Source: a virus
Virus record (IMG/VR): IMGVR_UViG_3300048592_001221
Span: 1-64,000 of that record
Length of the DNA stretch: 64,000 nucleotides
Reading direction: 5' to 3' (one strand)
How positions within the stretch are numbered: the stretch's first letter is position 1; every line of letters starts with the position of its first letter. The notes under the pieces were generated by a model. The model was not told the DNA's origin. It was given only the letters and a program-made list of their open reading frames with translations, and did no database searches. This document shows positions 23,624 through 59,145 of this stretch, one piece after another. The position numbers and the translations under genes are program-made.

Positions 23624-24037
23624 CTACCGGGTCCCCTCCTTTAGGGCATCATTCCAGTGGGTGATCGGCGTTGACCCCTTGGTTGCATTCTGGATGCGCT
23701 TCATGGCCACAGCATCAGGGCTGGGAGGTGGGGCGACCGTCTGGGAAGCGGGGGTCTGCACAGGAGCCCCCTTGGCCTCCAAAACGGGCTTCCCGCTCGA
23801 GTAATTGATCCGGGCGGCATCGTGCTCCTTCATGGCCCTTGCGTGGCTCCTCTCGGCGTTCATGGCCCCGTAGTCGAGCGTCCTGGTGGCGGGCTTCGGT
23901 GCGGCCTTCATGGCCCCGTAGTTCAACACCCGTTCCGCCTGACCAGCGGTCTCGGGCAGCCTCGTTCTTTTGGCGAGCCCCTTGAAGGCGGCGAGCGCAT
24001 TGGCCTTCTTTTCAAAGCCATCCCAGAAACTTCTCAT
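23624..24037 (-). CDS. Protein with capsid-targeting-like N-terminal peptide, 137 aa
   Basis: The N-terminus M-R-S-F-W-D-G-F-E-K-K-A matches the peptide shared by several genes of the virion cluster at 50.6 and 57.3-59.1 kb. The rest is low-complexity, with two copies of a [N/D]-Y-G-A-M-[K/N]-A motif 17 residues apart (near 41 and 58) and a related I-N-Y-S-S, then a P/A/Q-rich linker. I infer that it is a head-internal protein whose gene lies away from the head module. Start at 24037 (ATG) or the adjacent GTG; GGAG lies upstream. Confidence 0.6.
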   Translation of the reverse strand: MRSFWDGFEKKANALAAFKGLAKRTRLPETAGQAERVLNYGAMKAAPKPATRTLDYGAMNAERSHARAMKEHDAARINYSSGKPVLEAKGAPVQTPASQTVAPPPSPDAVAMKRIQNATKGSTPITHWNDALKEGTR

Positions 24038-36294: not shown

Positions 36295-36296
36295 GC

Positions 36297-38243: not shown

Positions 38244-38569
38244 TTTTCGCCTCCATCCTTTCTTTGGCGGAGGTTATCTCTAATCTGGTAAGCCTCGCTC
38301 AGAGCCTCCTCGGTCAGGCCGTAATCCGGATCGAGGACAGCTCCGAAAAGCCGATCAGGTTGAGACGTTTCCTTTGGCTTTTGAAGGATGAGCCGAAGAC
38401 GTACGAGCTCATTGTCGACGTGCTCCTGGGCTGCCGCCATCAGTATGAGCTTATCCTCAGGGGCGGAGGCCTGGGCGGCAAGACAGATGCTTTTAAAGGC
38501 CGACGCAACGTGATAGGGCATTCTTAGAGCTTCAATCACGGGATCCGGATCGAAGGGCTTGTCGTTCAT
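38240..38569 (-). CDS. Hypothetical protein, 109 aa
   Basis: Not recognised. It lies between two glycosyltransferase genes and overlaps the downstream one by four bases. Helical (HVASAFKSICLAAQASAPED; LMAAAQEHVDNELVRLRLIL) with an acidic N-terminus. Its position suggests a partner or small subunit, but nothing in the sequence proves this. Confidence 0.5.
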   Translation of the reverse strand: MNDKPFDPDPVIEALRMPYHVASAFKSICLAAQASAPEDKLILMAAAQEHVDNELVRLRLILQKPKETSQPDRLFGAVLDPDYGLTEEALSEAYQIRDNLRQRKDGGEK

Positions 38570-38577
38570 GGACTCTC

Positions 38578-39609
38578 CTACGGAGTAAAGTTCGTGACAA
38601 GAGTGTGGTACATGCGCTCATAGTGCTCGATAAGGCGGCCCGGACTCCAGTATCTTTCCATCCAAAGGCGTGAGGAACGCCCCTGCTCAAGCCAGCTTCC
38701 GCTCTGAACAGTGTGTCTGATGCGACTTTCAAAGTTTGACTCGGAGGCCGCAAGCCACGGCAGCCACTCGCAACCCGTAAGATCCTTCACGGCTCTTTCC
38801 GTCGCGCGGTCGATATTGGCAAAGCAGGCGATGCCGAGCGAAAGGTACTCCAGGCTGCTGAGATGGTAGCTGCCCGTTACGATCTCATCGATGCCGATAT
38901 GGGCAAGTCTTTTTTTAGCCATCACGTCGCGGTGGGGCAGACCCGTGAGAAGCTGAAAGCTTATGTCGCCCCGAATCTTCATCCTTTTGAGAACAGGCGC
39001 AACGACACCATAACCCTTGTCGTTCCAGCCCCTGCCGTTGGTATTGCTCGGCGCAAATGAAACCACGGGGCGCTTGACGACCTCGGGCGGCGGCTCTCTT
39101 GTGTTTTCCGGGGAGTGGATGTCGACGACATTCGGGACGATAAAGGAGAGCTCCGGCCACTGACGCACATGATACTGGGCAATGATGGCCAAAGGGATTT
39201 TTGAGTTGACCTCATCCCGAAAGTCCTCACCCTCGTGTCGCGGGCTGTGCATTTGGATGACAGACGGCCTGCAAGGCGGGGCCAGCTCCATTCTTCTGAA
39301 GATCTCCTGCCGCCGCCATCTGTTGTGATAGTGGATGACGTCCGCCCATTCATAGACGAGATACGCGAGCTGCGCCGGCCTCAGATCCATGCCTATGAGA
39401 TCGCACTCGAAGCTCCTGTAGCCGAAGGTCGGCTGCCAGGTGATATGCTTCGATTCGATTCGGCCGTCGCTATATTTATTCAAAAGCTTTGAGATTCGCA
39501 CGGGGCTGCCAGAGAGCTGCGTATCGCTAAGGTGCAGGACCCTAAGAGGCTTCCTTGGCTCTGTCCGCGAAGGATAGTTGATGACACACTCACCCTCAAC
39601 CAGCTTCAT
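38578..39609 (-). CDS. Glycosyltransferase-like protein, 343 aa
   Basis: GT-B-like: the N-terminal R-V-L-H-L-S-D-T-Q-L-S-G-S-P opening, W-A-D-V-I-H-Y-H-N-R-W-R near residue 110 and I-V-P-N-V-V-D near 182 match the donor and acceptor domain landmarks of GT4 enzymes. The C-terminal E-x7-E block is degenerate: S-S-L-E-Y-L-S-L-G-I-A-C-F-A with only one glutamate. So it may be an inverting or inactive relative. Start 39609 has GGGGA upstream. It begins the glycosyltransferase locus. Confidence 0.6.
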   Translation of the reverse strand: MKLVEGECVINYPSRTEPRKPLRVLHLSDTQLSGSPVRISKLLNKYSDGRIESKHITWQPTFGYRSFECDLIGMDLRPAQLAYLVYEWADVIHYHNRWRRQEIFRRMELAPPCRPSVIQMHSPRHEGEDFRDEVNSKIPLAIIAQYHVRQWPELSFIVPNVVDIHSPENTREPPPEVVKRPVVSFAPSNTNGRGWNDKGYGVVAPVLKRMKIRGDISFQLLTGLPHRDVMAKKRLAHIGIDEIVTGSYHLSSLEYLSLGIACFANIDRATERAVKDLTGCEWLPWLAASESNFESRIRHTVQSGSWLEQGRSSRLWMERYWSPGRLIEHYERMYHTLVTNFTP

Positions 39610-40060
39610 AGACCATCCCCAAAAGCTTGGGCTGGTAGCGGATCCAGCTGTCCGAAAGCTTTGCCGAAACGAACTCCACGAAGAGACCATCGCGGGTCTG
39701 GAATTTCACGTAGCCGGCTTTTTCAAGGAAGACGAGTCCGTGGGCGGTCAGCTTTCTGGGAAAGCCGCACTGCTCAAAACCCCACATCAGCTCCTCGACG
39801 ATCCCCTCCTGGACATTGCCGTTCCGCTCGAAACAGTCAAAGAGCGCCTGCAGGACCATCTGCCCTTCAGCAGGAAGGGTCGTCGGAATGCTTGCCACGA
39901 GCTTGAAAAAGGATTTGATCTTTTTTAGCTCCTGGGGGGCCGTCCGTGTTTCGGGAAGAAGGTCCACCTCCAGCTTTTGGGTGCGTTTTGTGTACCTTGC
40001 GTTTTTTGGCAATCTCTTGGCCTGGCGGCGAAGGCGCCGCTCGATTTCAGCAAACCTCAT
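39596..40060 (-). CDS. Hypothetical protein, possible winged-helix fold, 154 aa
   Basis: Not recognised. A basic N-terminus (RRLRRQAKRLPKNARYTKR) is followed by a central helical part and a helix-helix-strand stretch (QCGFPRKLTAHGLVFLEKAG then YVKFQTRDGLFVEFV) that looks like a winged helix. That would suggest nucleic-acid binding. It overlaps the first glycosyltransferase by 14 bases. Confidence 0.5.
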   Translation of the reverse strand: MRFAEIERRLRRQAKRLPKNARYTKRTQKLEVDLLPETRTAPQELKKIKSFFKLVASIPTTLPAEGQMVLQALFDCFERNGNVQEGIVEELMWGFEQCGFPRKLTAHGLVFLEKAGYVKFQTRDGLFVEFVSAKLSDSWIRYQPKLLGMVYEAG

Positions 40061-40890: not shown

Positions 40891-41805
40891 ATGTTTTTTG
40901 AGCCCAGCTCGTTCGGGGCCCGCAAGCTCAGCATGGATCATTTCCGTGAATGGGCAGGGACCATCGCAGGCCAGTATCTGAATGAGGGGACTCTTCCGAC
41001 CGAAGCCCTCTGCAAGACAGCTCAGGCCGAAGACCTCACACCTGACAGCATCAACGTGCTGGCAGCCGAGATTAACAAGGAAATCCATAGGCAAAAGTTC
41101 GCCTCGGCCGAGGACAAATACTTTGCAGCCGACTTCCCGCTTGCCGATGCCGCCGTTGCCATTCGCCGGCTTCAGGCTGATGGGGGAGAAACTAAAGTTG
41201 CGAGCGCCATGCCGGAGCCTGTCATCAAAAAAGCGGAAGCCGACCCCTTTGAAGCCTTCGGTGTAAAACCCGAGTCGCAGGACAAGACGGCCTCGCTTCG
41301 TCATGAGTTGCGGCATGCAAATCAAAAGCTTGAGGCCATGGACAGGATGCTTCAGGACAAGGTCGCCATGCTCTCGATGCAGCGTGAGTCAACCGCCGCC
41401 ACCTTCATAAAGCAGGCGCGTGATTTCGTGCTCTCAAGTGCCATGAATCAGCCACAACGACTCGAAGCGCTCGATAAGCTGGCTTCGTTTGTCAAATGCG
41501 CCGGCATGCAGTTTGCGGCTCCCCTTGTTTCGGAGGTTGCAGCCTCGCTGGGCCGTGACGGGCTTCTTACGCGTGAGCAGGTAAAAACCGCCAGCGAAAA
41601 AGCCGAAAAGAGGGCTGACCTCAAAGCCCCGGAAGGCCTCATCAGCCCCACCCTTCCCGCGCAGATCGTCAACGGCAACCACCCGCTCTACATTACGCTC
41701 AAGACTTTCCGCGATCAGAGCAACGATCTTCGTAACTATGATCAGCAGCTGAAACTCACGCAGGATCAGCTTCGCATCATCAAACAAAAGGTGCGCGCGC
41801 TGTGA
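40891..41805 (+). CDS. Head core/scaffold-like protein with multiple K-x-A sites, 304 aa
   Basis: First gene of the virion operon. It is helical and contains nine K-x-A tripeptides (42-44, 102-104, 113-115, 132-134, 157-159, 174-176, 196-198, 202-204, 232-234), for example D-K-T-A-S and V-K-T-A-S. If K-x-A is the prohead protease signal (inference), the protein would be cut to small pieces during maturation, as scaffolds of large phages are. Residues 137-160 and 275-304 look like coiled coils. It overlaps the next gene by four bases. GGGAGG lies upstream of the ATG. Confidence 0.55.
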   Translation: MFFEPSSFGARKLSMDHFREWAGTIAGQYLNEGTLPTEALCKTAQAEDLTPDSINVLAAEINKEIHRQKFASAEDKYFAADFPLADAAVAIRRLQADGGETKVASAMPEPVIKKAEADPFEAFGVKPESQDKTASLRHELRHANQKLEAMDRMLQDKVAMLSMQRESTAATFIKQARDFVLSSAMNQPQRLEALDKLASFVKCAGMQFAAPLVSEVAASLGRDGLLTREQVKTASEKAEKRADLKAPEGLISPTLPAQIVNGNHPLYITLKTFRDQSNDLRNYDQQLKLTQDQLRIIKQKVRAL

Positions 41806-42059
41806 AAGACGATCTTCTCTCCAGGCTGGCTCCGGACGCAAAAGACCTTATCAAAGAGGCCATGATCGGGGCCGTCGCACGCATGGGACTTCAGGGTATG
41901 TCCCGGGCAGGGAAGGTGCTCGTAAAAAATCCAATGGTAAGCGCTACGGCCGCGGGTGCGGGCTACGACATGACGAAGTCGGTTGGCCGGATGAACGATC
42001 TCACGACCGGTGCAAAAAACCTTATGACCAGTAAAATGACGGCTCCTGCCAATATGTGA
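41802..42059 (+). CDS. Small head-module protein, 85 aa, GTG start
   Basis: GTG overlaps the preceding stop. Helical N-terminal 40 residues (DDLLSRLAPDAKDLIKEAMI) with K-E-A, then glycine/alanine-rich middle (GAVARMGLQGMSRAG) that may be amphipathic. No family is recognised. Its place between the scaffold-like gene and the next core protein suggests a structural or internal role. Confidence 0.5.
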   Translation: MKDDLLSRLAPDAKDLIKEAMIGAVARMGLQGMSRAGKVLVKNPMVSATAAGAGYDMTKSVGRMNDLTTGAKNLMTSKMTAPANM

Positions 42060-42066
42060 GGTTTCC

Positions 42067-43263
42067 ATGCAAATCGTGTGGCTTGAAAAGATGGCTTCCG
42101 CAGGTGAGATTCGCCCTGAAGCAAAGGCCAAAATCTACGAAGACTGCAGCGCGCTTTTGAAGCTGGGCGCTGACGAAGGAGCTTTTTCAGACGCCCATTT
42201 CGGAAGGCACGCAGGCAACGCAGCCGTCGGTGCCGCCATCCTCGGGGGTATAAAGCTTTTCGATCTGATGAAGGTGCAAAGGGTCGTGGGCAAAATACAA
42301 AAATCGCGTGACGCGGTCATGCAGGACCCCGCGTTCCAGGGTCATCTGGAGCTGGCAGACAAGCGCTTCGCGGATCTCGCCAAGGTTGCGCCGACGATTG
42401 CCGCCGACCCAAAAAAAGCAAAAGACCTTATCGGCCGCACTCTTCACACGGGTTTTTCCAACGACGACATGAACCATCTCGCCGTTCTTCAGGCCGTCTA
42501 CACGGCCAAGGATCCAGGCTTTGCAGGCAAGGTCGATAGCAAAATGTCGAAGAAGGCCTCTGCGGAAAGGCTCGGCGAGATGTACGCCGATGTCTTCTGC
42601 CTCGTCAAGGAAGCCGGTATCATGGGCGGCATTGGCGATGCCATACGCCGAGGCGGAGCCGCTGCGAGCGGTATGGCCGCAAGAGCCGCTGGCGGTATCC
42701 GCCCTGGGACGGTGGGTCAGGCCCTCAAAAACGTGGCTCTCGTGAGTTCGATTCCACTTCTCGCTGGCATTGGTCATGGCGTCATCAATCAGGTGCAGGC
42801 GAGCCGCGACAGCAAGGTTATGTCCCAGCGCCTTCGCGCATCCTACGAAGAAGCCATGCGCCGCGACAAGCTCACAAACCCTGACCAGCAGAGTCAGGTG
42901 GCTCTCAACGATAATCCGGCAGAAGCCTACCGGGCATTTGAAACGCTCGTCCATTTTGCTCCCCACGTCGCCCTCCACCCGGATTCGGCCCGGACGTTTA
43001 TGGCCAGAATCATGGGTCAGGCGCAGGATGTGGAGCTCCCCGACATCAAGCAGCTGACCGATATCGAGCGAAACCTTGCCTCAGCCGGTCAGACGAGCCC
43101 CTTCATGGCTGGCTTTTCTGGTGCAGCGACAGCGTTTGGGCTTGGCGAAGGCCTGCGCGCGGCAATCAAGGATACGACCGAGCCCTTGCGCCAGCAGAAC
43201 AGGCAGATGTTTGCGCGTGACCTTGGCGTCAACATGAAAAACCAATCATCGAAGGGCAGCTGA
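42067..43263 (+). CDS. Structural/internal head protein, 398 aa
   Basis: Not recognised. Helical, alanine/glycine rich. It opens with Q-I-V-W-L-E-K-M-A-S, followed by K-x-A tripeptides, notably M-S-K-K-A-S and L-V-K-E-A-G near residues 163 and 182. Between residues 185 and 250 there is a glycine-rich hydrophobic stretch (GGIGDAIRRGGAAASGMAAR; VALVSSIPLLAGIGHGVI) which could insert in a membrane during DNA ejection. Its last base is shared with the start of the protease gene. Confidence 0.5.
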   Translation: MQIVWLEKMASAGEIRPEAKAKIYEDCSALLKLGADEGAFSDAHFGRHAGNAAVGAAILGGIKLFDLMKVQRVVGKIQKSRDAVMQDPAFQGHLELADKRFADLAKVAPTIAADPKKAKDLIGRTLHTGFSNDDMNHLAVLQAVYTAKDPGFAGKVDSKMSKKASAERLGEMYADVFCLVKEAGIMGGIGDAIRRGGAAASGMAARAAGGIRPGTVGQALKNVALVSSIPLLAGIGHGVINQVQASRDSKVMSQRLRASYEEAMRRDKLTNPDQQSQVALNDNPAEAYRAFETLVHFAPHVALHPDSARTFMARIMGQAQDVELPDIKQLTDIERNLASAGQTSPFMAGFSGAATAFGLGEGLRAAIKDTTEPLRQQNRQMFARDLGVNMKNQSSKGS

Positions 43264-45284
43264 TGGATAAGCTCCTTCTTTTTCCGGGTAAAACCGAGCA
43301 AGGTATTTTCACCCACCTTATCGACTACGAGCGAGGCTACCTCACGAAGACGGCCTCGCAGGGCGCCTACCATCCGACGATTGCCTCGTATATCGGCGCG
43401 GCGAAAAAGATTCCAGGCAAAACGCAGATCCTCCTCACGGCGCTCGGCGCAGGGGAGTATTGGGGTGATAACGCCAACGGCGACTACTTCCCGGAATCGG
43501 AGCTGGCCTACGAAGGGGATGAGGACTACGGCTATAGAACCTTTGTAAAATACGCAAAAATCTATAAGCACCATGTAAACAAAAACCCGGCGGCATCCTT
43601 CGGCGATGTCCCGCTCGCCGTTTATAATGCACAGTTTCATAGGGTGGAGCTCATCGTTCTTTTGGACGACGCAAAAGCCCCTGACATTGCCGAGAGGATT
43701 GAGCACGGGCAGTACCCCGACTGGTCCATGGGAACACGGATACCCTACGACGTCTGCAGCATCTGCGGCAACAAGGCTCCCAACATGAAGTTTTATTGCC
43801 ACCATGCAAAGTACCTCATGGGGCGAATCGATCCCGAGACAGGCAAAAAGGTCTTCGTGAGAAACTACAAGCCGAAGTTCTTTGACATCAGCTATGTGCT
43901 GATCGGCGCCGATCGGATCGCCAAGACACTTCGCAAGGTCGCCCACGCGCGCCCTATCTATTACGGGGTAAGTTCGGCTGCGCTCGCGGAAAAAGCCGCC
44001 CAGCTTGCGAAGGCGGCAACCATAGAAAAGCATGTGCCGGCCGGAACAGCCAAAGACCCTCCTTCAAGTCAGACTGCCGGGGAGGCGCTGAAGGATATCG
44101 CCCGCATGATCCCCGATGTGAAGGCGCGGGAGCGGAGACTGCCCAAGGAAGTCCTCGATGGGCTCTCAAAACTGCCCCTCAGCCGCTCACTTTCCACCAT
44201 GACGATGCTCGGCATCCTTCCGAAGCCCGAGGAGTTCCAAAGACTCTTTTTGCTCTCCAAAGGTCTGCGCGAATTGGCCGACGCCCTGGAGCAAAGAGCC
44301 CTCTGCTTTGATCCAATGATGCGCCCCGACCCCGGAGCTTCGGATATGGGCGCCTTTGATATCAGCCATCGCCACTTCGATGAGGGTGCGATGCAGAGCC
44401 TTTTGCCGTTCCTGCCGGAGAGAAGCTATGCGAGCCCCCATCTTTCCAAGCGGATCGCCATCCTTATCAAAACCGGCTCTGCTCAAAACCGGAGCGATCT
44501 GCCGACCTTCATGAAGATTGGCGAAGACGGCAAGCCCAAGGATAGAACCCCGCTGGGGATCGTTCCGATTATGCTCGCGGCCGCGGGAGCCTACGCAGCC
44601 CTTTCAAAAAAGGCCCCGGCAGGGAGTCTTCAAGGAATAGATAAGCTGCTACAATCAAATGCAGGTTTAGGTCTGGCGACTGCACTCGGCATTGGACTTC
44701 TGTCCGTATTTCATAGTACGTTTGGACCTAAAGTTAAGGGACAATTTAATACCGGCGACTATACGAACCCTGATGCCAACGACATGCATTCTCGGATCGA
44801 GGATCTGAAGCAAAAGCCGTATCTCAAACTCGGCGGGGTTACCCAAAACCTCGGCGCAGCGGGTAGGCGGCTCTTTCTAGGCATTCCAGCTGCCTACATG
44901 GGCTCAGGAGTTTTAGCGGCGCATCGAGACGCAAACCCCTACGAGACGGAGGGCCGATTGAGCGCGTTTCTTCGGCAACACCCTGACGTCGTAAGCGGTG
45001 GTCTGATTGCGGACGCCATGCAGTCTGCCAGAGGAGGCGGAACTCATAAGGTCATCAAGAATGTTCTCGGCGGCTTAAAAAAAGTCGCTGAAGACGGCAC
45101 TGGTGACGAGAGCGCCCCTATGAAGACGGCAGATGTCCAGGAACTGGCGAGCAATGCCCTTCTTTGGCCTTTGGCCACGGGCAAGGTCAACCTTCCTGGG
45201 AAAATCGTCGGCGGGCTTCTTGATTCGGGAATCATGGCCGGGGGCTCCTGGCTCGCTCGAAGAAAGAAGTCCGAGCGCAGTTGA
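43263..45284 (+). CDS. Prohead protease with zinc finger and long C-terminal extension, 673 aa
   Basis: The first 230 residues resemble large-phage prohead serine proteases: Y-K-H-H-V-N-K-N-P near 101, R-V-E-L-I-V-L-L-D-D near 132, then Y-P-D-W-S-M-G-T-R-I, where S-M-G is the probable nucleophile site and His101/102 the base. Directly after comes D-V-C-S-I-C-G-N-K-A-P followed by Y-C-H-H, a built-in zinc finger, and K-F-F-D-I-S-Y-V. Residues 240-673 are a helical extension with two hydrophobic stretches near 440 and 465. Y-L-T-K-T-A-S near residue 30 may be its own processing site. Confidence 0.7.
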   Translation: MDKLLLFPGKTEQGIFTHLIDYERGYLTKTASQGAYHPTIASYIGAAKKIPGKTQILLTALGAGEYWGDNANGDYFPESELAYEGDEDYGYRTFVKYAKIYKHHVNKNPAASFGDVPLAVYNAQFHRVELIVLLDDAKAPDIAERIEHGQYPDWSMGTRIPYDVCSICGNKAPNMKFYCHHAKYLMGRIDPETGKKVFVRNYKPKFFDISYVLIGADRIAKTLRKVAHARPIYYGVSSAALAEKAAQLAKAATIEKHVPAGTAKDPPSSQTAGEALKDIARMIPDVKARERRLPKEVLDGLSKLPLSRSLSTMTMLGILPKPEEFQRLFLLSKGLRELADALEQRALCFDPMMRPDPGASDMGAFDISHRHFDEGAMQSLLPFLPERSYASPHLSKRIAILIKTGSAQNRSDLPTFMKIGEDGKPKDRTPLGIVPIMLAAAGAYAALSKKAPAGSLQGIDKLLQSNAGLGLATALGIGLLSVFHSTFGPKVKGQFNTGDYTNPDANDMHSRIEDLKQKPYLKLGGVTQNLGAAGRRLFLGIPAAYMGSGVLAAHRDANPYETEGRLSAFLRQHPDVVSGGLIADAMQSARGGGTHKVIKNVLGGLKKVAEDGTGDESAPMKTADVQELASNALLWPLATGKVNLPGKIVGGLLDSGIMAGGSWLARRKKSERS

Positions 45285-45319
45285 TCTCGTGGCAATCAGA
45301 CATTTTTTTGGAGGAAACC

Positions 45320-45961
45320 ATGGCTACACTTCAGGATCTGCTCGCAGCATCGTTTGGCGACAACGCCTCGACAAAAACCGCTTCCGTCAACTCTCAGGAA
45401 TCTGATGATGCCCTGACCAAGCTGGCAAAAGAACTGAAATTCGACGGCTTTTTCGGAAAGCAGGCCGAGGAAGAGGAAAAGGAGGAGAAGGAGGACGACG
45501 ACAAGGAAGACAAGGACGAGGAAAAATCCGCCTCGTTTAACCTTGACGGCGTCTACGGAGCCCTCTTTCCAGAGGATCGTGACATCGCAGTGAAGACTGC
45601 CGAGGAAGAGAAAAACGCAGCCGAGGAAGCCCTTGGCGCCCGCGCGTTCGATCACTATGCAAGTCAGTGGGATCGTCGCATCGAAAAGATTGCTGCCGAG
45701 GCCCTCACTGGCGGCGCAACCATCAGCGCGTCGACCGCCGCTCATCACGACGGTCCCGTTCAAACCGATGTCGAGCCACCACAAGGCCAGGCCAACAACA
45801 AACCCGCGGACTCGTCGTCTGCCGTCAACACCAAGTCTGTGAGCATTCAGGACGAAGTGAAGGCAAAAAACAATGCGTCCACCGTTGGTCATTTCGAGCA
45901 AAAGCATGCCGCAGCTCTGGCTCTGACCAAGCACCTGCTGCTGGCTCAGTTGGAAGACTGA
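45320..45961 (+). CDS. Scaffold-like acidic core protein, 213 aa
   Basis: Start 45320 follows GGAGGA. The N-terminal 50 residues carry T-K-T-A-S (19-22), L-T-K-L-A and F-F-G-K-Q-A near 48; then a run of about 25 mainly acidic residues (EEEEKEEKEDDDKEDKDEEK) and later V-K-T-A-E and I-E-K-I-A-A. Strong acidity, helical propensity, K-x-A sites and position two genes after the protease are all typical of a scaffold or core protein that is cut out before DNA packaging. The C-terminal 60 residues are disordered and then helical (KHAAALALTKHLLLAQ). Confidence 0.6.
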   Translation: MATLQDLLAASFGDNASTKTASVNSQESDDALTKLAKELKFDGFFGKQAEEEEKEEKEDDDKEDKDEEKSASFNLDGVYGALFPEDRDIAVKTAEEEKNAAEEALGARAFDHYASQWDRRIEKIAAEALTGGATISASTAAHHDGPVQTDVEPPQGQANNKPADSSSAVNTKSVSIQDEVKAKNNASTVGHFEQKHAAALALTKHLLLAQLED

Positions 45962-46032
45962 AATAGTCCATTGGCAGCATGAGCCGGTTCCAGAGCAGTC
46001 GAACTAAAAATAGACAAAAAGGAGCAAGTGAT

Positions 46033-46704
46033 ATGCGTATTCAAGATCTGACCCCAGAGCAGCAAGCCATCCTCAGTACCGACTTCGGCGCAGAAACTGA
46101 AAAGGTCGCCGCTGAGCAGGCCAAGGTCGCCGGCGAGATGTACAATAAGGGCCTCGAAATTGCCCTGAACATCGCCGACGCCATGGACAAGCAGGCTGCT
46201 GAAGCCGAAAAGATCGCCAGCGAAAGCGACGAGCTGAATAACCCGGAAGCCGAGAAAATCGCGGCGCAGATGGGTGCCTTCATCGAGCGCGGCCAGTATG
46301 ATGGTCTCCGCAAGCTGGGCTCCGATCGTCATGGCAACGAGTGGCACTACATAGCACCATTCGTTGAAGAAAAGGTGGCTTCGGCTGCAGCCAAGGCCGG
46401 CCTCGACCGCTTCCGCAAGTTTATGGCAGGCGGCGCGCAAAAGGCGAAAGACTTTGCCGGCAAAGCCAAGGACAAAGCCAGTCAGGCCGGCAAGGCCGTG
46501 AAGGATTATCACAAGGGAATGGCTGACGACGCTCGTTCAGCAGCCACCGGTCGTAACTCCTTTATGGATAACGTCGGCGTCAAGGGCAACCTGAACGCCA
46601 AGCAGCGCGCGGCAGCGGGCGGCAAGGCCCTCGCCAAAGCATCGCCTTACCTGGCGGCTGGCGGCGCGGCCGGCTACGCGGCGAGCAGAAAAAAGGACGA
46701 CTAA
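46033..46704 (+). CDS. Core protein rich in K-x-A sites, 223 aa
   Basis: Start 46033 has AAGGAG upstream and replaces the longer frame from 45979. It is helical with many K-[IVQ]-A sites: E-K-V-A, A-K-V-A, D-K-Q-A, E-K-I-A (three or more) in the first 90 residues, and E-K-V-A-S near 117. A basic glycine/alanine/lysine-rich C-terminal half (KDKASQAGKAVKDYHKG) is suited to contact DNA. It probably belongs to the prohead core with its neighbours. A short hairpin follows. Confidence 0.55.
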   Translation: MRIQDLTPEQQAILSTDFGAETEKVAAEQAKVAGEMYNKGLEIALNIADAMDKQAAEAEKIASESDELNNPEAEKIAAQMGAFIERGQYDGLRKLGSDRHGNEWHYIAPFVEEKVASAAAKAGLDRFRKFMAGGAQKAKDFAGKAKDKASQAGKAVKDYHKGMADDARSAATGRNSFMDNVGVKGNLNAKQRAAAGGKALAKASPYLAAGGAAGYAASRKKDD

Positions 46705-46713
46705 AAACGGCTG

Positions 46714-46735
46714 CGGGAGGGCACCTGCTCTCCCG
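46714..46735 (+). terminator. Hairpin after core-protein gene
   Basis: The stem CGGGAG/CTCCCG with a ten-base loop lies ten bases past the stop; it is followed by TCATTTCTT, a weak T-rich tract, then the next AAGGAG. Partial termination is likely. Confidence 0.45.
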
Positions 46736-46758
46736 TCATTTCTTAAGGAGTCGCCCTC

Positions 46759-47157
46759 ATGGTTAGACCTCTTTCCGAAATCATCCGCGACACAGATGAG
46801 ATCGTATCCCGCCGGGTGTCGGAGAAAACAGCCTCGCCTTCACAGGACGAGCTGACTGATGACGATGTCTTTAAGCTCGCCGAGCAAATTCGCAAAGCCC
46901 CCTCGGTCCCCACCGAGAAAAAGGCCTCGCAGAATGAAGACCTCGAATTCACGATGCGTGAAAAGATCGCGCACGCCGTGGCCCTCGTCGATACGCTTTT
47001 GAATCTGCCGACCCTGATCAAGGTCGCGCAGTTTGAAGACTCCGCCAAAGCCCAGGGCTATAGCGATGCCGAAATCACCGCGCAGCTCGAAAAGACTGCC
47101 GGGATCCAGTTCCGCTCGGTCCTCAGTGAGATGCCCTGGTTTCATACGGAGAACTGA
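46759..47157 (+). CDS. Head-module protein with four K-x-A sites, 132 aa
   Basis: AAGGAG upstream. Helical, acidic. E-K-T-A-S near 23, E-K-K-A-S near 55, I-K-V-A near 94 and E-K-T-A-G near 113 are evenly spread, which would cut it to about 20-40-residue peptides. The helix M-R-E-K-I-A-H-A-V-A-L-V-D-T-L-L-N-L-P lies between sites. It ends two bases before the GTG start of the next gene. Confidence 0.5.
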   Translation: MVRPLSEIIRDTDEIVSRRVSEKTASPSQDELTDDDVFKLAEQIRKAPSVPTEKKASQNEDLEFTMREKIAHAVALVDTLLNLPTLIKVAQFEDSAKAQGYSDAEITAQLEKTAGIQFRSVLSEMPWFHTEN

Positions 47158-47159
47158 TC

Positions 47160-48041
47160 GTGACGATAAGCCTTGGACAAACGACAAAGGAAGCCTTTCT
47201 GAGAGGGTTTGTGCGGCGGCTCAAAGGACAGGCGGGTTCCGCTCCGTCCGTTATGAGGGCTGCGGCCAACTCGGTCGGCAGGATCCCCAAAGGTTTTGCC
47301 AAAGGCATCGACACGAAAAATGTTGAAAGAGCATGGCAGGGTTACAAGTCCCAGGCAACTGAAGGGGGCGGAGGCGCAGAGTCCCTTCTCCTCTTCCCCG
47401 CTCAGTTTGCAGCCGAAAAGATGTTTGGCAAGGAACGGGTTCGTAACGCGATCTGGAAGCACATAAGCGGCCCGGCACTTGCGGCCGATACCGCTGTAGG
47501 CAACGTCCTTAGAAAGACGCCGCTCGTTGGCGATCGCCTTTTCCGGGTGAAAGAAAACATCCCCTGGAAGGGTAAGCTGCATCGGGAGGTCATGCGATCT
47601 TCCGCTCTTGGTCCAATTACAAAGGCAAGAGATATTGCAACCCCCATCATTGTAGGTGTAGGCTTGGAAAAAGGCATGAAGCATTTAACAAATAGACCGT
47701 CGCAATCGCTTGAATCCTCAGCGCAGGACCAAAACCTGCGGGAAAAAGTTGCTTCTGTGATGCTCCAACTTCACGCGAAGAATAGGGAGCATGAGAAGCG
47801 GGCGCAGGCCGAACGCATCTTCTGGAAACAGGTGGAGCGTGGCCTCGAACAGCCGCCCGAGTCGTATAGCGAACTCCAATCAAAGTTGGCGTCGCTCGTA
47901 AATGAGGATTTGAAGGTATTGGAGAAGGCTGTGGAGTTAGCTGGAGGCACGATGAAACTCGGTGAGCTGGACGGTTCGTCCCGCGATGCCGCGCAAGGTC
48001 TGACGCCCAGTGAGAAATTCCAGGCTGACCTCCTCGATTGA
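47160..48041 (+). CDS. Head-module protein with variant targeting peptide, 293 aa, GTG start
   Basis: Near the N-terminus, T-K-E-A-F-L-R-G-F-V-R-R-L-K-G-Q-A has the same spacing as the F-W-x-G-F-x-K-x-A peptide, with L for W. The protein is basic and alanine/glycine rich, with R-E-K-V-A-S near 196 and several helical stretches in the C-terminal third (ERIFWKQVERGLEQPPESYS). No family is recognised. It is directly upstream of the decoration and capsid genes. Confidence 0.5.
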   Translation: MTISLGQTTKEAFLRGFVRRLKGQAGSAPSVMRAAANSVGRIPKGFAKGIDTKNVERAWQGYKSQATEGGGGAESLLLFPAQFAAEKMFGKERVRNAIWKHISGPALAADTAVGNVLRKTPLVGDRLFRVKENIPWKGKLHREVMRSSALGPITKARDIATPIIVGVGLEKGMKHLTNRPSQSLESSAQDQNLREKVASVMLQLHAKNREHEKRAQAERIFWKQVERGLEQPPESYSELQSKLASLVNEDLKVLEKAVELAGGTMKLGELDGSSRDAAQGLTPSEKFQADLLD

Positions 48042-48071
48042 GCGAACAATCTTTTTTTGGAGGAATGCTGA

Positions 48072-48560
48072 ATGGTAGTTGCCATTTCGGATGCCCGCGT
48101 GGCGCCCATCACCGAAGACCTGACGACGAGCGAAATGCGTTTGTCTGTTACACGGGGTCTCGAGTCCATGTTCCGCAAGGACGTCAAGCTTAACACCGCG
48201 GACACAGTCCTTGGGCTTGGCGAGTGGGCCGTTCTGAATGCCGACGGTAAAGCCGAGCGTGCAGGCGCGGTTCCCGTGGGCCAAACTTATCTCGTCTTCG
48301 CCGGAACAGACCGTTTCGATGTGAAGGCGACTGGCCAGGTAACACTCATCACAAGCTGGCCGATTCAGGCCAAGTCCAGCGTCTATGACGATGGGCAAAG
48401 CTACGCTGTCGGTGACCTGCTCACTGTGAAAGACCTTGGCGGCGGCGAGTCCGCACTGACCAAGGCCGCGAGCGGTGAGGCAGCCCTGGCCCGCGTGATT
48501 GCAGTTGGCTCAGGCTGGCTGGAATACGAAACCCTGGGCGGCGGATTTGAAGCTCCTTAA
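48072..48560 (+). CDS. Probable head decoration protein, 162 aa
   Basis: Immediately upstream of the major capsid gene and predominantly beta: V-L-G-L-G-E-W-A-V-L-N-A-D-G-K-A, V-P-V-G-Q-T-Y-L-V-F-A-G-T, Q-V-T-L-I-T-S-W, S-Y-A-V-G-D-L-L-T-V. Small beta-rich proteins at this place are usually capsid decoration/stabilisation proteins. GGAGGA lies upstream. A-L-T-K-A-A near residue 138 is another K-x-A. The assignment rests on position and composition. Confidence 0.55.
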   Translation: MVVAISDARVAPITEDLTTSEMRLSVTRGLESMFRKDVKLNTADTVLGLGEWAVLNADGKAERAGAVPVGQTYLVFAGTDRFDVKATGQVTLITSWPIQAKSSVYDDGQSYAVGDLLTVKDLGGGESALTKAASGEAALARVIAVGSGWLEYETLGGGFEAP

Positions 48561-48615
48561 TTGAAGCTTTGATTCCGACATTCAACCACTTTTGAGACAT
48601 CAAGGAGAAGAATAG

Positions 48616-49542
48616 ATGTACGAAGGTCTTGACGCCCAGACGTTCAACAATTTGTTTATCGAGAAGTTGGACACAGTCGAGGGCTTGCAAAAAACAGCAG
48701 CTGCAGGTGCCGCGTTCATTCGCGCGAAGATTCGTGAAATTGGTTTCGCCCGCCGGATCCTCCCGCCAGAGTCAGTGACTCGCGCGGATCTGACCCGCTC
48801 GACCGATCATGATACGCTGATCAAAATCGTGGACATCGAACACGATTCGGCAGCGATGGCTGTAAACTTCGTTGGCACCGCCAGCGAGCGCTACATCCAA
48901 GGGAAACGTTACGCGATTCCCTTCTACAAGATCGAATCCGAGAAGTTCGTGAAGTCCGAAGGCGAACTGCTGGCCTACGATTACCCCATCACAAAGGTGA
49001 TCGAGGAGAACAGCATCAAGGACATCCAGAAGGTGGAAGATTTCCGCTTTTTGGAGCACGCTGAAGCTGCCATCTCCATCACCGGAAAGCGCCTCGTGTC
49101 GCCTGCGACTCAGGTCGATCGTAAGGAGATGAACAGTCTCTTCAAAATGATCGACTTCGATCAGCTGACCGTCGGCTGCTGCCTCATGAACACCGTGGAT
49201 TATGACGACTACATGATCCAGCCCGCGAGCGAAATCGGTTCGCCTTTGGCCTCCGAGATCACCGTGGATGGCTACAAGTACGAGTCGATCCTCAAGCGCC
49301 GTCTTGTTGTAACCAACAAGCACGACCTCGTTCTTCCCGGCGAAACCTGGGCCTTCACTGAGCCCGCCTACCTCGGCAACTTCTTTATCCTGAACGACGT
49401 CAAGTTTTGGATCAAGAAAGAGGCCGATCTGATCGTCTGGAAAACTTGGGAGTATATTGCCCAAGGTTTCGGTAACATCAAGTCGATCGCCAAGATCGAG
49501 ATGGATGTACCAAACCCAATCCCAACGGGCGGTACGATCTAA
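48616..49542 (+). CDS. Major capsid protein, 308 aa
   Basis: Expected place between the protease/scaffold genes and the neck genes, with a strong ribosome site and a strong terminator behind it. The N-terminal 28 residues end in G-L-Q-K-T-A, then A-A-G-A-A-F-I-R-A-K-I-R-E-I-G-F-A-R-R-I-L-P resembles the N-arm and following helix of HK97-fold capsids. Later sections E-S-E-K-F, M-N-T-V-D-Y-D-D-Y and E-P-A-Y-L-G-N-F-F-I are consistent with the P- and A-domains. Cutting after K-T-A at 26-28 would remove a short propeptide. The related family is large-phage HK97-like capsids. Confidence 0.7.
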   Translation: MYEGLDAQTFNNLFIEKLDTVEGLQKTAAAGAAFIRAKIREIGFARRILPPESVTRADLTRSTDHDTLIKIVDIEHDSAAMAVNFVGTASERYIQGKRYAIPFYKIESEKFVKSEGELLAYDYPITKVIEENSIKDIQKVEDFRFLEHAEAAISITGKRLVSPATQVDRKEMNSLFKMIDFDQLTVGCCLMNTVDYDDYMIQPASEIGSPLASEITVDGYKYESILKRRLVVTNKHDLVLPGETWAFTEPAYLGNFFILNDVKFWIKKEADLIVWKTWEYIAQGFGNIKSIAKIEMDVPNPIPTGGTI

Positions 49543-50142: not shown

Positions 50143-50622
50143 ATGGCCACGAGCACAAAGCAGTCAACGACCGATACCTCGCGCATGGCAAAAGCGAAGC
50201 GTTATCTTCGCCTTTTCATGATGGATACTCCTGAACTCAACCGGCTCATCAACAAGTACGAGTCGGATGACGAGATGCTGACTTTCGCAATCGAGATGAC
50301 AATCTCTGACTGGAATTCGACGACGCCTCTTATTGGTGCAAAGGACATCGGGAACTTTCCGAGCCTTTACCTGCTCATGCACGGTGCTGCCATTCAGCTG
50401 CTTAAATCGCAGGGTCTGCGGCAGGCACGAAACGAGCTCAACTACTCAGCCGGTGGCTCCAGCTTCATTCGCTCCAACAAGAGCAACTACTATATGAGCT
50501 GGATGGTAAACTTCGCCAACGAGTACGAAACCAAAAAAAGGAACATGAAAATCCAGCAGAACATCAATCGTGGTTGGGGCGGTGTCAACAGTGAGTACGA
50601 TTGGATCGGCTATGCCTGGTGA
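50143..50622 (+). CDS. Head-tail connector/neck protein, 159 aa
   Basis: Helical, with conserved-looking E-L-N-R-L-I-N-K-Y-E-S-D-D-E-M-L near residue 30, then a hydrophobic helix (FPSLYLLMHGAAIQLLKSQG) and S-Y-Y-M-S-W-M; C-terminal G-W-G-G-V-N-S-E-Y-D-W-I-G-Y. This helical shape and the place after the capsid gene fit a connector adaptor (gp15-like role) but there is no decisive motif. It overlaps the next gene by 11 bases. Confidence 0.5.
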   Translation: MATSTKQSTTDTSRMAKAKRYLRLFMMDTPELNRLINKYESDDEMLTFAIEMTISDWNSTTPLIGAKDIGNFPSLYLLMHGAAIQLLKSQGLRQARNELNYSAGGSSFIRSNKSNYYMSWMVNFANEYETKKRNMKIQQNINRGWGGVNSEYDWIGYAW

Positions 50623-50806
50623 GAGCTTTTGGCAAGGGTTCTACAAAAAGGCGGAAGTCCTCGCAGTGGCGGAGAAGGCGATGCCTCGTGAAAATAGCGA
50701 GGTCCCGCCTCCCATCATGCAGCGAAGCATTTCCAAATCTGGCCCGGTCCTCTCAGATTTGACGATGGAGAGCGATCGCGGAAAGTTTGAAACTTTCAAA
50801 GGATGA
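50612..50806 (+). CDS. Small protein with targeting peptide, 64 aa
   Basis: M-P-G-E-S-F-W-Q-G-F-Y-K-K-A starts the protein, matching the shared peptide. After the K-K-A only 50 residues remain (helical, then proline/serine rich), so the mature part would be a very small head protein. The gene is inserted between two neck genes and overlaps the preceding one by 11 bases. Confidence 0.6.
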   Translation: MPGESFWQGFYKKAEVLAVAEKAMPRENSEVPPPIMQRSISKSGPVLSDLTMESDRGKFETFKG

Positions 50807-51207: not shown

Positions 51208-52074
51208 ATGCCAGCAATCCTTAGGCGCATAGAGTTCGCGGAAATATCTGTGACGATCCTTTCGATCGAACACATATCGCGCGTAAGGGTTGGCTGGAGG
51301 CTCGCCAAATCCGCACAAAACCTGTCGCGGCTGCGCTTTTTTATCGACCGGGGCGAGAGCCCGAGCGAGATGCGCCAGCTCAATGCCGAGCCTCTTACGA
51401 TCGGGGATCTTCCCGAGTACGTGGACTTCACGGCGAACCTGAAGGACCTCAACAAGATCTACTACTACAGGGTGCGCGCCGTTGAGTACGAGGGCGATAC
51501 CCCGGTTCAGACCTTCACCTCAAAGGAGACGACCTGGGACGGTGACCTTGACCTTGTCGGCATCTACGTGGTCGACGAGCATCTTTTTGCGATGCGCTGG
51601 GTCTTTGGTGTGCCGGCCATGGTTTATAAAAAAAGACGCGAGGGAACCAACTGCCCCGAGTGCTGGGATCAGGTTCTAAAGCGCGTCACCAAAAGCAACT
51701 GCCAAACCTGCTACGGAACGGGCCGCATCGGGGGTTTTTATCCGCCCATCGATGTCTGGATGAGCTTTGAGCCCGACCCCCGTGTCGAGCAGGTCACCGA
51801 GTGGGGCAAGCGCCAGCCGACTCAGACCGATATCATGTTCACAAACTACCCGCTCCTCAACAACGACGACGTGATCCTCGAACTCAAGCCTGGGCGCTTC
51901 TGGAAGGTTTCCAACGTCAGAGGGCCGGAGAAAAACCGCACTGTCATGCTCCAGTTTGCCCGGCTCGACGCAATCAACCCTTCCGATGTGGAGCAGCGAC
52001 TTGATGTGCCCGAGGCCCGGAAGCTGGCGCTTCTTGCTGAAGCTGAAAAACGGGAAAAGCAGAGGGAATTCTGA
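51208..52074 (+). CDS. Neck/tail-completion protein with zinc ribbon, 288 aa
   Basis: The N-terminal 110 residues look like a fibronectin/Ig-type beta sandwich (ISRVRVGWRLAKSAQNLSRL; YYYRVRAVEYEGDTPVQT). A zinc ribbon follows, N-C-P-E-C-W-D near 152 and S-N-C-Q-T-C-Y-G-T-G-R-I-G-G-F-Y near 168. I recall C-P-x-C-x-D ... C-x-x-C-Y-G-T-G-x-x-G-G-Y-x-x-P as a feature of a neck protein of large phages. The C-terminal half is beta rich. The gene ends in the first base of the next start. Confidence 0.6.
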   Translation: MPAILRRIEFAEISVTILSIEHISRVRVGWRLAKSAQNLSRLRFFIDRGESPSEMRQLNAEPLTIGDLPEYVDFTANLKDLNKIYYYRVRAVEYEGDTPVQTFTSKETTWDGDLDLVGIYVVDEHLFAMRWVFGVPAMVYKKRREGTNCPECWDQVLKRVTKSNCQTCYGTGRIGGFYPPIDVWMSFEPDPRVEQVTEWGKRQPTQTDIMFTNYPLLNNDDVILELKPGRFWKVSNVRGPEKNRTVMLQFARLDAINPSDVEQRLDVPEARKLALLAEAEKREKQREF

Positions 52075-53249
52075 TGAGCGCTTTCGATGCGGGTTTCAAT
52101 AAAAGAGCACAAGGTCGTAGCCCTGCACTCACGCTTTTAAAGGGGCTCAGTATCCTCGCAGGCGTCGCCGGAGGATCTCTTGCCGGGGGCGGGGTCGGTG
52201 ATATAGCCAAAGGTCTCGGCAAGGATAGCTTTGCGGATCCCAGGAAAGGAAACCTCCGCAATAAGCTTCTCGATACTGCGCCCGGCCTTGGGAGCCTCGG
52301 TGGTGCTCTTCTCGGAGGCGGTAGCGCTTATAAGGCCTGGAAGAAAATTGCGGCCTTCGATGCGGGCTTCAATCGAGCGAAGGAGCGGGAGTGGGCGGGG
52401 GAAAAGTCCGCTTTCGATGCCTCTGCGGCCCTGGCCCGTAATCTTTGGGGCAGCATGTTCAGTGACCTCGGCAATAAACTCGCCCTGACACCGGGCGCAG
52501 CCCTTGGCGAGAAGGTGCGTGGCGTACGAAAGAAGGGAATAGAGGACCGGACGATGAGCGCTCTTTTGAAGAGCGATGAATTCGAGCAGGAGGATACCAG
52601 TTCACTCTCTGCTCTGGCGTCGGCAAGCGGCGTGGGGGCGCGGGCGGCTGAGGTCGCAGCGGGAACAGCAGGCGTCCTCGCAGGCTATGAGCTCTTGAAA
52701 GCGTCGAGACCCGTCATAAACGCGAAGCCAGGTTGGGCGCGACAGGTTGCCGACAGGCTTGCCAGCAAGGTGCTTGGCCCTGGAACCGCAGGGACTCTTC
52801 CCCACCTCGCACTCGCACTGGCAGGGAGCGCCCTTGCCACGGGCTATGTCACGACCCTTGCGAGACCTGCCATCTCGGAGGCGGTGGGCAATCTCGCGGC
52901 AAAACTCAGGAGCGGCGATATCCAAAAAAGCGTCGATCGCCACTTTGCAAGCAAAACGGCCTCCGGTGCCCTCCAAGGCTTCGATAGGGCCAAGACCGCA
53001 GCGAGCCTCATAGGGGTCATGCCAGGGGTCACCTCGGGCCTCAGAACAATGAAATCTTTCGGCAAGATAAGAACCGCGAGACCCGTCTCGGGGCAGTCGA
53101 TTGGCCCAAGGAGCAAGCCAAGCCCGACGCCCTCACCGACAAAGCCGCCAAATGCGGGCACACCGGGCGCGGCAAACAGTCAGGTTTTGACCGCAAACGT
53201 CCCAAAACCCATGAGTTACGGCAGCCGCCTTATGGGCAGCTGGATATAG
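52074..53249 (+). CDS. Glycine-rich internal protein with two copies of a targeting-like peptide, 391 aa
   Basis: The N-terminus M-S-A-F-D-A-G-F-N-K-R-A is a D-A variant of the shared peptide, and A-F-D-A-G-F-N-R-A appears again at residues 94-102; S-A-F-D-A-S at 112-117 is a third partial copy. Between lies a hydrophobic glycine-rich region (residues 24-84; LSILAGVAGGSLAGGGVGDI) and others follow, typical of membrane-inserting internal proteins that are ejected with the DNA. The C-terminus is proline/serine rich. K-T-A-S near 300 and K-T-A-A near 312 may be processing sites. Confidence 0.55.
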   Translation: MSAFDAGFNKRAQGRSPALTLLKGLSILAGVAGGSLAGGGVGDIAKGLGKDSFADPRKGNLRNKLLDTAPGLGSLGGALLGGGSAYKAWKKIAAFDAGFNRAKEREWAGEKSAFDASAALARNLWGSMFSDLGNKLALTPGAALGEKVRGVRKKGIEDRTMSALLKSDEFEQEDTSSLSALASASGVGARAAEVAAGTAGVLAGYELLKASRPVINAKPGWARQVADRLASKVLGPGTAGTLPHLALALAGSALATGYVTTLARPAISEAVGNLAAKLRSGDIQKSVDRHFASKTASGALQGFDRAKTAASLIGVMPGVTSGLRTMKSFGKIRTARPVSGQSIGPRSKPSPTPSPTKPPNAGTPGAANSQVLTANVPKPMSYGSRLMGSWI

Positions 53250-53439: not shown

Positions 53440-54108
53440 ATGGTCTCGATGAAGAAGGGCAACCCGACCTCGCCTGGTAGCGACACCGGGTTTGGCATCC
53501 GCAGGCAGTCGATTGCCGGCGGCGATCTCATTCCGAATGTGGCTGTTTTTTTAAAGAGAACAGCGTTAGAATTCCTCCAGGTGATCTTTTCCCAAAGGGC
53601 ACCAGGGTCGTTTCACTTCGACCAGGATGACGAGCAGACAGAAATCATCATAGCGGATGTTCATGCGGTCGATCTTCAGACTGTGGGCAGCCGTCCTGCA
53701 ATCGTGGCCGTGCGTGGGCCGCTGACGTGGACTGGAACAGGTCTTGGGGGCAGTAGCCTCGAGCAGCGTAAAGTCGCAACCGGCAAATACACGTTCAACG
53801 ACATTCTCACCGGATCCCTGGCAATTTCCTGCGTTTCGCGTGAAGGCGTGGAGGCCGAACAGATTGGGCACATCGTGTTCAATTCGTTCAAATGGTTTGC
53901 TCCTGTCTTGCGAAAATATGGGTTTCTTTCCATCAAGAGCCTAAACATCGGTGCAGAGCAGTTGATCGAGTCGGAAGGGGCTGACGACAAGACTTACATC
54001 GTCCCTATCTATCTCACCGCACAAATCCAGGATCGTTGGACTCTCGACACAGTCGCGGAGAGGAAACTGCAGAAAATCGTTACGGATCTTCTCATCGACA
54101 ACGAGTAA
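53440..54108 (+). CDS. Probable tail-completion protein, 222 aa
   Basis: Immediately upstream of the sheath gene, the usual place of a tail terminator or completion protein. The sequence is beta rich, including L-T-W-T-G-T-G-L-G-G-S and I-I-I-A-D-V-H-A-V-D-L-Q-T, with a helical C-terminus (VAERKLQKIVTDLLIDNE). I do not recognise a motif. The last bases overlap the sheath ribosome site AAGGAGG. Confidence 0.5.
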   Translation: MVSMKKGNPTSPGSDTGFGIRRQSIAGGDLIPNVAVFLKRTALEFLQVIFSQRAPGSFHFDQDDEQTEIIIADVHAVDLQTVGSRPAIVAVRGPLTWTGTGLGGSSLEQRKVATGKYTFNDILTGSLAISCVSREGVEAEQIGHIVFNSFKWFAPVLRKYGFLSIKSLNIGAEQLIESEGADDKTYIVPIYLTAQIQDRWTLDTVAERKLQKIVTDLLIDNE

Positions 54109-54119
54109 GGAGGTTTTCA

Positions 54120-57736: not shown

Positions 57737-58030
57737 ATGGAGTCTTTCTGGATAGGCTTTGAAAAACAGGCCTCGTTTATGAATGCAGGGCGGGCTTTTG
57801 TTCAGCGCATGGTGCCGAAAGCCCAGGCCGCCTGGCAGCAGGCACGTCCCGTTATGCAATCGGCAGTGGCCAAGGGTAAAACCATGGCGACCAAAGGGCA
57901 GCAGGCCGTCATGAAAACCCCGCAGCGGGCTCTTGCAGCTGGCGTTGCGGGTGGAGCGGCGGGGACCTATGCCCTGACGAGGCCGAGCGAGACTCCGATG
58001 CAGTATGGGGCACAAGCCGCGTACTACTGA
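57737..58030 (+). CDS. Protein with targeting peptide, 97 aa
   Basis: M-E-S-F-W-I-G-F-E-K-Q-A, the shared peptide. The mature part is basic and alanine/glutamine rich (MVPKAQAAWQQARPVMQSAV), with a glycine-rich hydrophobic stretch near 76-88. Its lysines could bind DNA inside the head. It begins two bases after the previous stop, with GAGGA upstream. A terminator-like hairpin follows. Confidence 0.6.
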   Translation: MESFWIGFEKQASFMNAGRAFVQRMVPKAQAAWQQARPVMQSAVAKGKTMATKGQQAVMKTPQRALAAGVAGGAAGTYALTRPSETPMQYGAQAAYY

Positions 58031-58408: not shown

Positions 58409-58600
58409 ATGAAAGACTTCTGGACCGGCTTTAAAAAACGGGCGGCCGAGGCCACCGAAGACCCTCTTGCACTCTGGCTGCAGGAAGCGGAGGATGAGCA
58501 AAAGACGATTGATGAGAAAAAAACACGACCCTATCGGGTGGATCCGCGTGAACTCTCGGAAGGGTTTACACCGGATACCTGGCAGCGTTACTGGCCATAG
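58409..58600 (+). CDS. Small protein with targeting peptide, 63 aa
   Basis: M-K-D-F-W-T-G-F-K-K-R-A, the shared peptide, then only 50 residues: acidic helix (DPLALWLQEAEDEQKTIDEK) and a proline/arginine-rich tail ending in W-Q-R-Y-W-P. Shares the E-D-P and R-Y-W style with nothing I know. GAGG lies upstream. Confidence 0.6.
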   Translation: MKDFWTGFKKRAAEATEDPLALWLQEAEDEQKTIDEKKTRPYRVDPRELSEGFTPDTWQRYWP

Positions 58601-58608
58601 GAGAGGGC

Positions 58609-59145
58609 ATGCGGGATTTCTGGGAAGGCTTTCAGAAAAGAGCCATGAAAGAGGTGGCGACTGTCGGGATCATAGATGTCGATGGTAGAAAGCTCCTCAT
58701 GGGCAAAAGAAAGGATAACGGTCGCTGGACGAATCCAGGAGGCCACCTCGACCCCGGCGAAACCCCGATCCACGGAGCGATCCGTGAGGTGAAGGAGGAG
58801 GCCGGAATAAGCCTCGGCGAGGACGATCTCATTCACATAAAATCAAAGACCGTGACCAAGCCCGGCGGCGAAAAGCTCAAGATCCATGCCTTCAAGGTCT
58901 TCTTTGGCTCGGACCGCCTGCCCAGAACTACGACGCGCAACGACCCCGACGACGAGGTTCACGGCTGGAAATGGATCCCGATGCCGGGCGGGCTCCCCAA
59001 GGAGATCCGGGACAACCTTCACGTGCCGCTCGGTCGCAATATCCTTCTCGACAGCCTCAACCTCTCGGAAGAAAACGAAACCTTAAAACCTGCCGGGGGT
59101 CTCAAAGAGGCCTTTTGGCGAGGGTTTAGGAAAGGAGCAGCATGA
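58609..59145 (+). CDS. NUDIX hydrolase with targeting peptides at both ends, 178 aa
   Basis: The NUDIX box is perfect: G-H-L-D-P-G-E-T-P-I-H-G-A-I-R-E-V-K-E-E-A-G-I (residues 45-67), the Gx5Ex7REUxEExGU signature that binds the metal in nucleoside-diphosphate-X hydrolases. The N-terminus M-R-D-F-W-E-G-F-Q-K-R-A and the C-terminus L-K-E-A-F-W-R-G-F-R-K-G-A-A both match the shared peptide. Substrate unknown; ADP-ribose, NAD, dinucleoside polyphosphates and (d)NTPs are typical. It is probably packed in the head. AGGAGAGGGC upstream. Confidence 0.85.
   Translation: MRDFWEGFQKRAMKEVATVGIIDVDGRKLLMGKRKDNGRWTNPGGHLDPGETPIHGAIREVKEEAGISLGEDDLIHIKSKTVTKPGGEKLKIHAFKVFFGSDRLPRTTTRNDPDDEVHGWKWIPMPGGLPKEIRDNLHVPLGRNILLDSLNLSEENETLKPAGGLKEAFWRGFRKGAA

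Follow-up and report, generated by a model that had tools for sequence, protein, structure and literature searches.

The Head Module and Its Protease

The window, that is, the whole stretch of 64,000 nucleotides analyzed here, is part of a 66,982-base virus record and contains a phage head module at 40891-49542 (Table 1). It also carries a DNA polymerase gene on the minus strand (32903-34780) and a tail sheath gene (54036-56594), and the phage is therefore large and contractile-tailed. Three minus-strand genes just to the left of the head module (35350-39690) resemble sugar or glycosyl transferases on visual inspection. The same region is present in a longer record of 166,638 bases (G001), whose capsid protein is 100% identical to that of the window. 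A multi-subunit-type RNA polymerase beta with an open frame of 2021 aa was also noted there (G001:C1:9149-10168, locus L126). The RNA polymerase subunits gp206 and gp216 of Salmonella phage Arash rank by mass spectrometry among the proteins most abundant in its virions (PMC10585845), which suggests a packaged polymerase.

Capsid proteins related to that of the window occur in 49 viral loci, at 38-100% identity; among isolated phages, they are carried by Arash and the Vibrio phages D69, D181, and D148. Two relatives lie on contigs binned into an Acidobacteriota MAG (L118, 58% identical) and an Archaeoglobales MAG (L120, 39%); these placements may be binning errors or hints of the host.

Table 1. 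Positions of head genes, proposed cleavage sites, and tagged proteins in the window
Feature	Coordinates	Strand	Support or remarks
Tagged protein, MRSFWDGF-E-KKA	23624..24037	-	
First core/scaffold-like protein, 304 aa	40891..41805	+	11 K-x-A, 3.3 expected
Head-module protein, 398 aa	42067..43263	+	5 K-x-A, 4.1 expected
Prohead (head maturation) protease, 673 aa	43263..45284	+	PHROG match, alignment, AlphaFold2 confidence
Protease K29-T-A31, proposed N-terminal propeptide site	43347..43355	+	
Protease K225-V-A227, proposed release site of C-terminal part	43935..43943	+	
Head-module protein, 213 aa	45320..45961	+	9 K-x-A, 3.1 expected
Head-module protein, 223 aa	46033..46704	+	6 K-x-A, 5.2 expected
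Head-module protein, 132 aa	46759..47157	+	6 K-x-A, 0.9 expected
Head-module protein, 293 aa	47160..48041	+	4 K-x-A; K and A ~0.93 conserved
Major capsid protein, 308 aa	48616..49542	+	phrog_2522 1e-10; 6wkk E 5e-17
Capsid K26-T-A28, proposed cleavage site of the propeptide, with Ala29 as predicted first residue of the mature protein	48691..48699	+	
Tagged protein, MPGESFWQGF-Y-KKA	50612..50806	+	
Tagged protein, 391 aa, MSAFDAGF-N-KRA	52074..53249	+	
Tagged protein, MNSFWEGF-E-KAA	57327..57734	+	
Tagged protein, MESFWIGF-E-KQA	57737..58030	+	
Tagged protein, MKDFWTGF-K-KRA	58409..58600	+	
Tagged Nudix hydrolase, MRDFWEGF-Q-KRA	58609..59145	+	Pfam NUDIX 5.8e-18
N-terminal tag of tag-bearing phages, sequence			MRDFWEGFQKRA

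The capsid protein falls into a major head protein family (phrog_2522) and matches the structure of phage G gp27 (6wkk) with an E value of 4.9e-17 over profile residues 12-292 and, judged by this match, is a phage G-type capsid protein with the HK97 fold. An AlphaFold2 model of it was poor (pLDDT of 50) and was set aside.

The protease matches the curated head maturation protease family phrog_18299 (8.3e-9), and relatives in Rhodococcus phage E3, Gordonia phage Stormageddon, and Erwinia phage Y3 are annotated as prohead or capsid maturation proteases. Neither the window protease nor its 12 homologues match any Pfam peptidase family, and assignment to S77, S78 (HK97-type), or S80 was ruled out on that basis. 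PF03420 (S77) is absent from the window protease, with T4 gp21 itself scoring 6e-112, as is PF20034 (S80), with SPN3US gp245 itself scoring 1e-84. Residues H103/H104, S155, and D208 are invariant in the 12 homologues down to 37% identity and are proposed as the catalytic residues. A cluster of C165, C168, C179, and H181 lies between S155 and D208 in the alignment and may bind zinc. AlphaFold2 predicts a folded domain at about residues 35-214 with low confidence on either side; the tripeptides K29-A31 and K225-A227 therefore sit at the domain edges.

The protease groups with phage G gp19 (profile E value of 3e-27, a match that takes in the KVA at the domain end). A weak profile alignment with T4 gp21 is collinear, pairing S155 with S140 and bringing an N-x-N motif and a histidine into register, and is not significant. 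Foldseek with the protease model likewise gave no significant match; T4 gp21 (5jbl) ranked 6 and 9 (E values of 0.16-0.19) in a list with unrelated Mla proteins around it. Profile comparison of the window protease with SPN3US gp245 gave nothing meaningful.

Two homologues (L025:3527-6601 and L047:5036-7846) carry an insertion of several hundred residues within the protease. Both insertions match a LAGLIDADG domain, and that of L025 alone also matches an intein-splicing domain. The L025 insertion begins directly after the proposed catalytic S155-M-G, so this protease would be inactive until splicing.

Excess and Conservation of K-x-A in Head Proteins

An earlier sequence-only reading described the head proteins as studded with the tripeptide K-x-A. 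Expected counts were taken from composition-preserving shuffles of the head proteins, and all X-x-Y pairs were ranked. The ten head-module proteins contain 53 K-x-A against 29.4 in shuffles (z of 4.6), which makes it the first of 345 pairs and bears out the studding. The reversed control A-x-K is depleted in the module (20 versus 29), and R-x-A, E-x-A, and K-x-S show no enrichment over shuffles. The excess is also confined to the head module: elsewhere in the window, K-x-A ranks 142 of 400 in the genes to the left and 98 of 321 in the downstream tail genes.

Individual proteins contribute unequally. None of 2,000 shuffles of the 304-aa core protein reached its K-x-A count, which the sequence-only reading had placed at nine instead of 11; its counterparts by position have similar numbers (10 in Arash gp220 and 11 in Vibrio D69). 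The count for the 132-aa protein was likewise too low, at four instead of six. Several tripeptides had been noted in both the 213-aa and the 223-aa proteins and are present in both, but only the former has a significant excess (P of 0.001); the 223-aa protein is not significant alone because its composition, rich in K and A, sets a high expectation. The tripeptide noted at capsid residues 26-28 is there as described, accompanied by K268-E-A270, and the one near protease residue 30 is K29-T-A31, one of eight in that protein.

Conservation singles out the two outer positions of the tripeptide. Across the 53 window sites, site K is conserved at 0.70 versus 0.48 for other K (p of 2e-5) and site A at 0.75 versus 0.43 for other A (p of 3e-11), with the middle residue (0.40) falling under the average of 0.45. 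In the 213-aa protein, site K and A reach 0.82 and 0.88 (0.43 and 0.41 for other K and A), and K181-x-A183 of the 398-aa protein reaches 0.89 and 0.94. K26 and A28 of the capsid protein are invariant in 46 homologues, and the residue between them varies among T, M, S, V, L, and E. Three relatives added later, from bacterial and archaeal MAG contigs, have KAA, KEA, and KEA at this site. Within protease residues 1-42, only M1, K29, and A31 are invariant in the alignment of homologues, as are K225 and A227 farther along; in the homologue L036, the N-terminal site reads K-H-G. Overall, K and A of the capsid and protease sites are invariant down to 37-39% identity. Because the conserved K268-x-A270 lies within folded capsid sequence, the tripeptide by itself is not sufficient.

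These results bear on whether the excess is simply a by-product of K- and A-rich helical proteins. The head proteins do contain much K, A, and E, and several probably form helices. However, composition is preserved in the shuffles, there is no enrichment of A-x-K, E-x-A, or R-x-A, K..A at spacings of 1, 3, and 4 shows no excess in the Arash head proteins, and K and A are conserved but not the residue between them. We rejected composition or helices as the source of the excess and give this explanation almost no weight.

The signal appears to extend beyond the tripeptide. About 893 sites from 18 head modules give the consensus [LMF]-[E/V]-K-[T/V/I/Q]-A-[S/A/E], in which S is preferred after A, followed by A or E. 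Proline is depleted from two residues before K through three after A and is enriched at no position. The longer form [LMFI]-x-K-x-A is found 25 times in the window against 5.5 expected and 32 times in Arash against 3.4.

If K-x-A is a cleavage signal, the bond that is cut could in principle follow K, placing K at P1 and A at P2' and starting the mature capsid protein at residue 27. K and A are equally invariant, the site logo alone does not fix the bond, and residues at P1 and P2' may point the same way in an extended substrate. We nonetheless regard a cut after K as unlikely: the two well-studied signals of large phages, I/L-x-E in T4 and A-x-E in SPN3US, have their fixed residues at P3 and P1, and S is favored right after A here just as SPN3US prefers S after its cut (PMC10052503). 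By this analogy, the cut most likely falls after A.

Related Phages, the T4 Control, and Putative Targeting Tags

The excess recurs in related phages. In the published annotation of Arash, the head proteins gp220-226 contain 39 K-x-A against 16.8 expected (first of 324 pairs), with ranks of 304 of 399 for 51 other structural proteins and 377 of 400 for 77 other proteins. In 16 head modules (the window and related loci) and in Vibrio D69, K-x-A ranks first to third of about 340, although these modules come from related phages and are not independent samples. Most regions downstream of the related head modules are without a K-x-A excess. The comparison with shuffled head proteins that the sequence-only reading had proposed thus returned an excess in the window, in Arash, and in 16 further modules.

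As a positive control, the head genes of T4 whose products are known to be cleaved contain 39 [IL]-x-E against 17 expected (z of 6.3), and gp18, gp19, and gp20 show no clear excess (16 versus 12). The T4 head genes also have a mild K-x-A excess (18 versus 11, z of 2.3), and a small excess by itself would thus carry no diagnostic weight. Further phages that encode this protease differ: the K-x-A excess is weak in a Bxz1-like phage and in Stormageddon and absent from Erwinia Y3, Vibrio GR11A, and Rctr197k; the specificity is therefore not common to the whole protease family.

When all genes of four related genomes (about 190 in each) were ranked blind, those of the head module came out among the top hits, alongside a few others. 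One of the high-ranking genes, at 97780-98640 in G015, encodes 11 K-x-A and starts like Arash gp242, which was found in Arash virions by mass spectrometry (PMC10585845). Proteins of 286-370 aa with 11-18 K-x-A each lie outside the head module at L082:6609-7718 (G010), L092:490-1587 (G006), and L107:2780-3640 (G015), the last beginning like the virion protein gp242; they are candidates for further substrates or ejection proteins. A 283-aa protein at L107:6391-7242 (G015) resembles by eye the phosphoesterase portion of a ligase for DNA repair and has 10 K-x-A, mostly in its C-terminal part.

In Arash, a K-x-A within the first 45 residues occurs in 19 of 93 proteins detected by mass spectrometry and in 2 of 42 undetected ones, a bias that is suggestive only. 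Coverage of the Arash capsid protein (266 of 307 residues) fits loss of the first 29 residues and equally fits short peptides that were missed, and we gave it no weight. Coverage was 96% for gp220 and 100% for gp223 and gp224 (PMC10585845), and at such values in K-x-A-rich proteins the data do not show removal. Cleavage is not a topic of that paper (PMC10585845).

Outside the head module, the tripeptide also ends a short N-terminal tag, FWxGF-x-K-x-A, that sits on otherwise unrelated proteins, including a Nudix hydrolase (Table 1). The claim that the targeting peptides end in K-x-A holds for 7 of 7 in the window, where the search pattern itself required K/R and A. An unbiased search looked for relaxed F..GF motifs near likely start codons in all loci compared. 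K-x-A was found in 66 of the 84 N termini obtained, exactly one residue after GF in 65 of the 66. In G001, the proteins that begin with such a tag range from 63 to 476 residues. The 391-aa tagged protein of the window additionally contains internal tag-like copies (AFDAGFNRAK, SAFDAS, and GFDRAKTA). As a short N-terminal peptide that ends in the putative protease signal, the tag resembles the capsid targeting sequences of T4, which end in the T4 cleavage signal, and it is likely a capsid address tag.

Because K-x-A belongs to these tags on cargo-like proteins, it could instead serve in docking or packaging, attaching to the inside of the prohead or to the capsid protein and staying uncut. This is improbable in our view, even more so than a cut after K. 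Docking does not readily account for many repeats within single core proteins, for sites that bracket the protease domain and close the capsid propeptide, or for the proline depletion and the preference for S, A, or E behind A. The cleavage signal of T4 also produces a matching statistical pattern.

Putative Maturation Pathway and Known Systems

We consider it very probable that K-x-A is the recognition and cleavage signal of the prohead protease encoded at 43263-45284, as the sequence-only reading had proposed. Supporting this interpretation are an excess limited to head proteins, conservation of K and A around a free middle position, the behavior of the T4 control, and the placement of sites at the ends of domains, propeptides, and tags. 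In the proposed mechanism, the protease would be packed inside the prohead with the core and would free itself by cuts at K29-T-A31 and K225-V-A227. It would then remove residues 1-28 of the capsid protein, fragment the core proteins at many K-x-A sites, and take the targeting tags off packaged cargo proteins. Each cut would most likely follow A (P3 = K, P1 = A), an arrangement like that of the T4 signal [I/L]-x-E and the SPN3US signal A-x-E.

Such a lysine-based specificity is not described for the studied prohead proteases of T4, phiKZ, and SPN3US, and we found no report of a K-x-A signal in the literature on prohead protease cleavage that we covered. A broader picture can be offered tentatively: a separate family of Cys-His-cluster proteases (in the window phage, Arash, phage G, and perhaps Bxz1-like mycobacteriophages) may share the K-x-A specificity, with one branch using the detachable address tag FWxGF-x-K-x-A to send many proteins into the head for delivery to the host. 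Few prohead proteases have a known cleavage signal, and K-x-A would be a third specificity. Being readable from sequence, it would allow the head proteins that are processed to be named across a large group of uncultured phages, as well as the proteins that are packaged and probably injected, and cultured phages of Salmonella and Vibrio are available for testing it. A pairing of protease and tag with a specificity of its own might further help to load proteins into capsids.

Among the closest known systems, those of Arash and D69 share with the window the gene order, the protease and capsid homologues, the K-x-A studding, and a capsid KEA at residues 27-29; Arash differs in that no FWxGF tags were found in it. 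Bacillus phage G has a protease (gp19) and a capsid protein (gp27) related to those of the window, and K-x-A ranks first or second in its head genes. However, its capsid protein is without K-x-A, and the deposited 6wkk chain is numbered from Met1. The phiKZ/SPN3US system (Peptidase_S80, S/A/G-x-E) is alike in its large phage head, extensive processing, and P3-x-P1 pattern, and its protease cleaves off its own C-terminal propeptide (PMC10052503, PMC7411985). In contrast to that system, [SAG]-x-E is not enriched in the head modules studied here, and the window protease has no S80 match.

Head maturation in T4 (gp21, Peptidase_S77, [I/L]-x-E), with its capsid targeting sequences and a core that is degraded, provides a comparison of how the system would work. 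T4 differs from the window in its signal, as [I/L]-x-E is not enriched in the window's head module (22 versus 26 expected), and in its protease, as that of the window lacks a Pfam S77 match, has the Cys-Cys-Cys-His cluster, and resembles gp21 in neither sequence nor fold at a significant level. The gene order of core, protease, core, and major capsid protein is common to both, as are the many sites in core proteins, the N-terminal capsid propeptide, and the N-terminal tags that end in the signal.
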